Origin: Mariannaea sp. PMI_226
Lineage: Eukaryota > Ascomycota > Sordariomycetes > Hypocreales > Nectriaceae
DNA: 64,000 nt
Assembly: GCA_024336345.1 (NCBI GenBank)
Contig: JANFOG010000014.1
Location: 434,001 to 498,000, forward strand
Direction: 5' to 3'
The notes under the pieces were generated by a model. It worked only from the letters and a program-made list of their open reading frames with translations. It searched no databases and was not told the DNA's origin. The stretch's first letter is position 1; each line of letters starts with the position of its first letter. Both the position numbers and the translations under genes were made by a program. This document shows, in pieces, positions 5,210 through 5,354 of this stretch.

Positions 5210-5339
5210 GCGGGTTTAGCTCAGTTGGGGTAAGATTCACATCTTCTGGCCCTCGCTTGAGCATAATAACTAACCTTCACTGACAGAGAGCGTCAGACTG
5301 AAGATCTGAAGGTCATGTGTTCGATCCACATAAACCGCA
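5210..5339 (+). tRNA. trnF(GAA): tRNA-Phe (GAA) with a D-loop intron
   Basis: Exon 1 is 5210-5229 and exon 2 is 5287-5339; joined they make a 73-nt tRNA. D-stem GCTC/GAGC, anticodon stem TCAGA/TCTGA and T-stem ATGTG/CACAT are perfect. The anticodon loop is CTGAAGA (anticodon GAA, G37 as usual for Phe), the T-loop is TTCGATC, and the discriminator base is A. The acceptor stem pairs at six of seven positions, with G5 facing A68. The A box (TAGCTCAGTTGG) lies wholly in exon 1 and the B box (TGTTCGATCC) in exon 2, so Pol III signals survive. A T7 terminator follows at 5348. There is no intron at the canonical 37/38 site. Without removal of 5230-5286 the D-arm cannot close, so the gene is either spliced in an unusual way or dead; the perfect stems argue against decay. 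Confidence 0.9.
5230..5286 (+). other. 57-nt spliceosomal-type intron inside the tRNA-Phe D-loop
   Basis: Begins GTAAGATT, has TAACTAACC with the candidate branch A about 15 nt before the end, and ends TGACAG. Donor, branch and acceptor match those of protein-coding introns in this window (for example the 69-nt ferric reductase intron). Cutting exactly at GT and AG restores the D-loop AGTTGGGA; shifting either border spoils it. Nuclear tRNA introns are normally removed by the Sen endonuclease next to the anticodon, and I see no obvious bulge-helix-bulge here. Confidence 0.75.
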
Positions 5340-5347
5340 AACAATAA

Positions 5348-5354
5348 TTTTTTT
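5348..5354 (+). terminator. Pol III terminator of tRNA-Phe
   Basis: Run of seven T, nine bases after the tRNA 3' end. A second, longer T run lies near 5386-5399 and could act as backup. Confidence 0.75.

Follow-up and report, generated by a model that had tools for sequence, protein, structure and literature searches.

All tRNA-Phe genes found in the fungus Mariannaea sp. PMI_226 carry putative spliceosomal introns in the D-loop

Structure of the locus

The window analysed here is a stretch of 64,000 nucleotides from the genome of Mariannaea sp. PMI_226 (Hypocreales, Nectriaceae). One of the proteins encoded in it shows 100% identity to BGZ63DRAFT_366067 of this strain. At positions 5210-5339 of its plus strand it harbors a tRNA-Phe(GAA) gene that consists of a first exon of 20 nt, an insert of 57 nt (5230-5286), and a second exon of 53 nt. 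The insert is located between nucleotides 20 and 21, in the D-loop. As proposed in a first-pass annotation of the DNA, removal of the insert yields a complete tRNA-Phe(GAA): ARAGORN folds the remaining 73 nt into a cloverleaf and assigns it as tRNA-Phe(gaa). The intact gene (5210-5339), as it stands in the window, is reported as a tRNA neither by ARAGORN nor by Rfam at gathering scores. The constituent features, read from the sequence and with further evidence given in brackets, are as follows.

5210..5229, plus strand: tRNA-Phe exon 1, nt 1-20, comprising the 5' strands of acceptor stem and D-stem, the A box and the first part of the D-loop, identical in 8/8 copies
5217..5228, plus strand: presumed A box, internal Pol III promoter, entirely within exon 1
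5230..5286, plus strand: spliceosomal-type intron, 57 nt, at D-loop position 20/21 (shuffle test; site common to 8/8 genes found)
5230..5235, plus strand: GTAAGA as 5' splice site, where the remaining 7 copies have GTATGT or GTAAGT
5270..5274, plus strand: branch-site motif CTAAC with branch A at 5273, invariant in 8/8 copies
5284..5286, plus strand: 3' splice site CAG, the first AG downstream of the branch site
5287..5339, plus strand: tRNA-Phe exon 2, nt 21-73, without interruption at 37/38 (ARAGORN)
5300..5302, plus strand: anticodon GAA (ARAGORN)
5319..5327, plus strand: presumed B box GTTCGATCC, internal Pol III promoter
5348..5354, plus strand: T7 run, likely Pol III terminator

The host gene has the signals of a Pol III transcript. 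The segments that we take to be the A box (5217..5228) and the B box (5319..5327) of the tRNA-Phe gene are intact, and a downstream T-run is found in 8/8 copies. The earlier observations that the A box is retained in exon 1 and that position 37/38 is uninterrupted both hold, the former given our assignment of the box and the latter in all eight copies, whose anticodon arms are contiguous. The previously described donor, branch site and acceptor (GTAAGA, CTAAC and CAG) are likewise present. Only the spacing has to be corrected: the distance from branch site to acceptor was given as about 15 nt, whereas 12-13 nt follow the branch A among the copies and 13 nt separate it from the end of the insert at 5230-5286. 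The ARAGORN drawing contains a mismatch in the acceptor stem, G5/A68 (window positions 5214 and 5334), which is common to 8/8 copies because their exons are identical.

tRNA-Phe genes in the genome

Whole-genome searches (42.2 Mb, 25 contigs) reveal 8 tRNA-Phe genes, and each of them carries an insert of 55-60 nt at the identical 20/21 site. A search with the window gene places them on four contigs, namely C6, C19 (2 genes), C20 and C25 (4 genes). The first-pass annotation had suggested looking for the same intron in other tRNA-Phe(GAA) genes of the genome, and no exception is found among these eight. The 3' half of the tRNA, searched with up to 3 mismatches, has exactly 8 matches, all of them exact (none for the reversed control). 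At the same tolerance, 10 matches are obtained with the 5' half, of which the 8 exact ones are the insert-bearing genes (control: 1). The two additional exon-1 matches (L097 with 2 mismatches and L098 with 3) were rejected, as neither a Phe anticodon arm nor a B box is present in the next 200 nt. The uninterrupted D-arm GCTCAGTTGGGAGAGC has no match in the genome, and the anticodon-arm string has 27 matches, including the 8 tRNA-Phe genes, all continuous at 37/38. According to the first-pass annotation, intact intronless genes that supply all mature tRNA, together with a lack of spliced reads from this locus, would point to a pseudogene. On the genomic side, the searches return no such gene: 0 matches for the D-arm, and 8 exact 3' halves and 8 exact 5' halves that all belong to insert-bearing copies. 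Neither an intronless tRNA-Phe nor one split at 37/38 was found in the 42.2 Mb, in an assembly where a gap could hide a copy.

All 73 exon positions are identical across the 8 copies. The flanking sequences share 36% identity upstream and 44% downstream, and T5-T7 runs are located 8-11 nt past the last tRNA base in 8/8 copies. Four of the genes are found within 1.4 kb (L056, C25:944566-945953), one on the plus strand and three on the minus strand, and both of the intron families described below neighbour each other in this cluster. ARAGORN with introns allowed also calls a tRNA-Pyl there.

Scans of viral and other genome contigs for relatives returned no fungal homologue. Two tRNA-Val genes were found in viral contigs, and a contig labelled as a Flavobacteriales MAG (L084:6399-7227) contains a tRNA cluster with an intronless tRNA-Phe that shares an identical stretch of 34 nt with the fungal gene, reaching from the anticodon stem to the T-loop. 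The stretch is AT-rich and the contig may, as a guess, be misbinned; it is not a known fungal relative.

Splice signals and sequence divergence of the inserts

The eight inserts have lengths of 55, 56, 56, 57, 57, 57, 58 and 60 nt. The donor is GTAWGT in 7 copies and GTAAGA in 1, the acceptor is CAG in 7 copies and TAG in 1, and CTAAC is present in 8/8, with 12-13 nt following the branch A. In the printed insert sequences, the terminal AG is the first AG past the branch site. All eight therefore match a U2-type intron in their GT...AG ends, fungal donor consensus, and branch motif at the right distance. Each of the 8 inserts was shuffled 200,000 times, and the combined signal set (GTA[AT]G[TA] at the start, CTAAC near the end, and AG at the end) arose once in the total of 1,600,000 shuffles.

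Pairwise identity among the inserts is 100% in the branch motif and 86% in the donor, and averages 48% in the middle part (36% for shuffled middles). Divergent middles, identical exons and retained signals are what removal of the insert, with conservation of its splice signals, would be expected to produce. The inserts form two families, A (L001-L005) and B (L006-L008), with a middle identity of 40% between them; these sequences are compatible with common descent as well as with two gains at one site. Within family A the middles are 53% identical, and 17 nt (CTAACCTTCACTGACAG) are the same in 5/5 copies. These 17 nt constitute the 3' end of the intron (window 5270-5286). The 8 nt between CTAAC and the terminal ACAG, identical in all five copies, are unexplained by splicing signals alone.

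Other classes of intron were considered as well. No Rfam match to a group I or group II catalytic core was obtained at gathering scores in the window, L001, L006 or L056, and 55-60 nt is too short for an intron of either group. The idea of a mobile intron was rejected: the search with the window gene found just the 8 genes, at that sensitivity, and there is no sign of a spreading family. The intron of L007, used as query, matches just one further place in the genome, another tRNA-Phe copy. The longest T run in the transcribed body is 3 in 8/8 genes; the product of the chance probabilities is 0.24, so avoidance of T4 is not significant.

Introns of mRNA, U6 and U3 genes in the same genome

For comparison, introns of other genes in this genome were inspected. 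The window contains a gene for a P-type ATPase, from which removal of two introns restores all 1315 residues of the annotated protein (P0001). The introns comprise 69 nt (GTGCGT..CTGAC..CAG) and 76 nt (GTAAGT..CTAAC..TAG), and were delimited by a script that imposed GT/GC and AG ends and left the branch motif free. Judged at this level, the signals of the tRNA-Phe inserts match those of mRNA introns of the same genome, as represented by the one gene compared. A set of 46 ORF-supported intron candidates was set aside in favor of these two introns, as the candidates had been picked by a motif filter and are noisy.

The first-pass annotation had named the mRNA-type introns of some fungal U6 genes as the nearest precedent, and the U6 gene of this very genome turns out to be split in the same manner. 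A search in which 47 of 2720 candidates were scored gave one Rfam match, and this gene, on contig C2, carries a 56-nt intron (L044:1473-1528) GTTAGT..CTAAC..CAG directly 5' of ACAGAGA; 12 nt follow its branch A. Joining the exons UUGAAACGAU and ACAGAGAAGAUUAGC restores the Rfam consensus UUGgAACgAUACAGAGAAGAUUAGC. The Rfam U6 alignment is poor at its 5' side, where the model runs into the intron and thereby masks it; the intron is revealed by the flanks. A B-box-like sequence, GTTCGAATCC, is located inside the U6 intron. Both U3 matches (L085 and L086) are interrupted too, by introns of 89 and 203 nt with the structure GTAAGC or GTATGT..GCTAAC..CAG. These introns sit after ACTTCA and before GAGAATCATTTC, where they are concealed by the Rfam model. 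They contain runs of T4 and more, and Pol II transcription of U3 is therefore likely. The U6 and U3 introns have 12-13 nt after the branch A, matching the tRNA-Phe inserts, and the eight tRNA-Phe introns together with the U6 intron span just 55-60 nt.

Folding of the precursors

The junctions were tested for a canonical bulge-helix-bulge. In 16/16 tests (8 copies in 2 registers) only 0-2 of the 4 central pairs are formed; the tests cover canonical forms alone. The previous remark that no such motif is evident is borne out for the canonical form in both registers of 8/8 inserts.

In 8/8 cases the full precursor folds somewhat more stably than signal-preserving shuffles do on average (z between -0.6 and -2.8), with 3 to 86 of 300 shuffles folding as well as or better than the precursor; the copies are not independent of each other. 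Splicing signals by themselves do not account for this tendency. Tests of local folding are weaker (z of -0.7 to -1.6 for the 3' part and 0.0 to -2.2 for the 5' part). In the predicted folds the 3' end of the intron pairs with exon 2. For family A the predicted partners are GTCAG and TGAAGGT of exon 2, a statistically weak pairing that would place the 3' splice site within a loop of 7 nt; for family B a different pairing with the same exon 2 is predicted. We note that the program used does not recover the cloverleaf of the spliced tRNA either, and the precursor folds hence merit little weight. As a speculation, such pairing could hold the precursor out of the cloverleaf until splicing.

The Sen pathway and other tRNA genes

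Two matches to PF01974 (Sen-type) exceed the cut-off in the genome. In a sample of 63 of the 1269 Rfam tRNA candidates, which includes none of the eight tRNA-Phe loci, 11 genes are long (84 nt or more), and for 9 of these ARAGORN reports an intron in the region of the anticodon loop. By these matches and predictions, the Sen/ligase pathway of tRNA splicing appears to be present in this fungus.

Other tRNA genes were screened for an intron at the same site. The pattern AGTTGG..GTAWGT..CTAAC has 8 matches, 7 of which are tRNA-Phe genes (reversed control: 5), and a version with AGTGG has 10 (control: 10). ARAGORN calls no tRNA at the 11 non-Phe loci; it also misses D-loop inserts, those of the Phe loci among them, and the B box was therefore sought directly. 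It is located 43-44 nt past CTAAC in 7/7 Phe loci and is absent within 110 nt in 11/11 others. Further tRNAs with a D-loop intron behind AGTTGG or AGTGG were rejected on these grounds, for these spellings of the A box and for this site.

Proposed mode of splicing and alternative explanations

The explanation that best fits these observations, with a probability of roughly 0.9, is that the major spliceosome, and not the Sen/ligase pathway, splices the precursors of the cytosolic tRNA-Phe pool. Pol III would transcribe all tRNA-Phe(GAA) genes found, from intact A and B boxes to the T-run, and each pre-tRNA-Phe would carry a 55-60-nt U2-type intron in its D-loop (20/21). The major spliceosome would recognise GUAWGU (or GUAAGA), CUAAC, and the first AG thereafter; the intron would leave as a lariat, with G20 joined to A21, and the spliced tRNA-Phe would then follow normal maturation. 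The Sen endonuclease and tRNA ligase would be bypassed, while both are expected to process the anticodon-loop introns of other tRNAs.

One alternative is a non-canonical tRNA intron that relies on the Sen endonuclease for cleavage and on tRNA ligase for joining, its GT-AG look being coincidental. The pathway is hinted at by the two PF01974 matches and by the introns in the anticodon-loop region of 9/11 long tRNA genes, and according to one published account archaea have ectopic introns at 20/21, while non-canonical tRNA introns occur in Cyanidioschyzon and nucleomorphs (PMC4090602). Nonetheless, with 0-2 of 4 central pairs in all 16 canonical tests, and with the conservation of GTAWGT, CTAAC and YAG in 8/8 inserts left unexplained, we consider cleavage by Sen very unlikely. 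Retention of the insert in the mature tRNA, as an expansion of the D-loop after nt 20, where its length varies naturally, is imaginable in structural terms: G18 and G19 lie in exon 1, and the acceptor, anticodon and T arms are whole, so that a long D-loop branch could be accommodated. It would leave the mRNA splice signals persisting next to middles that diverge to a mean identity of 48%, and is the least credible of the alternatives.

The eight loci might also be pseudogenes or tRNA-derived repeats, with the real tRNA-Phe encoded by an unassembled intronless gene. The assembly consists of 25 contigs and may have gaps, four of the copies lie within 1.4 kb, and eukaryotic genes predicted with non-canonical introns are, according to the same account, usually deemed pseudogenes (PMC4090602). 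Decay is difficult to reconcile, however, with 73/73 identical exon positions in 8 copies whose flanks are unlike each other (36-44% identity), with exon 1, exon 2 and T-run terminators intact in 8/8, and with no intronless copy in 42.2 Mb; this explanation is highly improbable, if slightly less so than a retained insert. What decides for splicing by the spliceosome is that the inserts carry these signals, that the exons are identical and that no other copy was found; the intron position alone does not discriminate.

As no other tRNA-Phe gene was found, cytosolic decoding of Phe would depend on the spliceosome. Judged from the genome, it is quite probable, though less so than spliceosomal removal as such, that the entire cytosolic tRNA-Phe supply of a eukaryote is made by the spliceosome and depends on pre-mRNA splicing capacity. 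If true, translation and splicing are coupled, and a drop in splicing would be felt first at Phe codons; an essential tRNA would have switched splicing systems, and tRNA-Phe would report naturally on the capacity of the spliceosome. The gene would also constitute a natural test of the spliceosome on a short Pol III transcript with a first exon of 20 nt. Such genes are overlooked by some gene finders, here by ARAGORN and by Rfam at gathering scores.

Comparison with known systems

Canonical tRNA introns at 37/38, which are processed by Sen and a Trl1-type ligase, resemble the present case in that a nuclear tRNA gene is split with its A and B boxes undisturbed. The tRNA-Phe inserts differ in their site (20/21), in the lack of a canonical bulge-helix-bulge, and in their GT-AG ends and branch site. 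Closer in position are the ectopic bulge-helix-bulge introns of archaea, Cyanidioschyzon merolae and nucleomorphs: the archaeal introns at 20/21 have a bulge-helix-bulge, and red algal and nucleomorph tRNA genes contain non-canonical introns (PMC4090602). In contrast, the tRNA-Phe inserts lack the canonical motif and have mRNA-type signals. For tRNAscan-SE, a search for non-canonical introns is described for archaeal candidates (PMC8450103). A tRNAscan-SE survey of tRNA gene numbers in 552 Sordariomycetes genomes does not contain the word phenylalanine in its main text (PMC12707824). The literature searched, which leaves most subscription journals outside its scope, yielded no description of a tRNA gene with a spliceosomal intron.

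U6 and U3 are the small-RNA precedents for mRNA-type introns. Spliceosomal introns in fungal U3 snoRNA genes have been described (PMC5832005). Like the tRNA-Phe genes, U3 is a structured small RNA with an mRNA-type intron, and both U3 matches of this genome are interrupted; it differs in the length of its introns (89 and 203 nt here), in their T4+ runs, and in not being a tRNA. The closest known system is U6 snRNA, a Pol III transcript whose genes in S. pombe and other fungi carry mRNA-type introns; Canzler et al. 2016 reportedly dealt with U6 introns. The likeness extends to the short GT-AG intron and the CTAAC-type branch site. In the present case, however, the host is a tRNA, the site is the D-loop, and all 8 copies found are affected, so that the spliceosome would serve translation. 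Since mRNA-type introns in Pol III RNAs are already known from U6, what is new is the tRNA as host and the interruption of every gene found for one isoacceptor.
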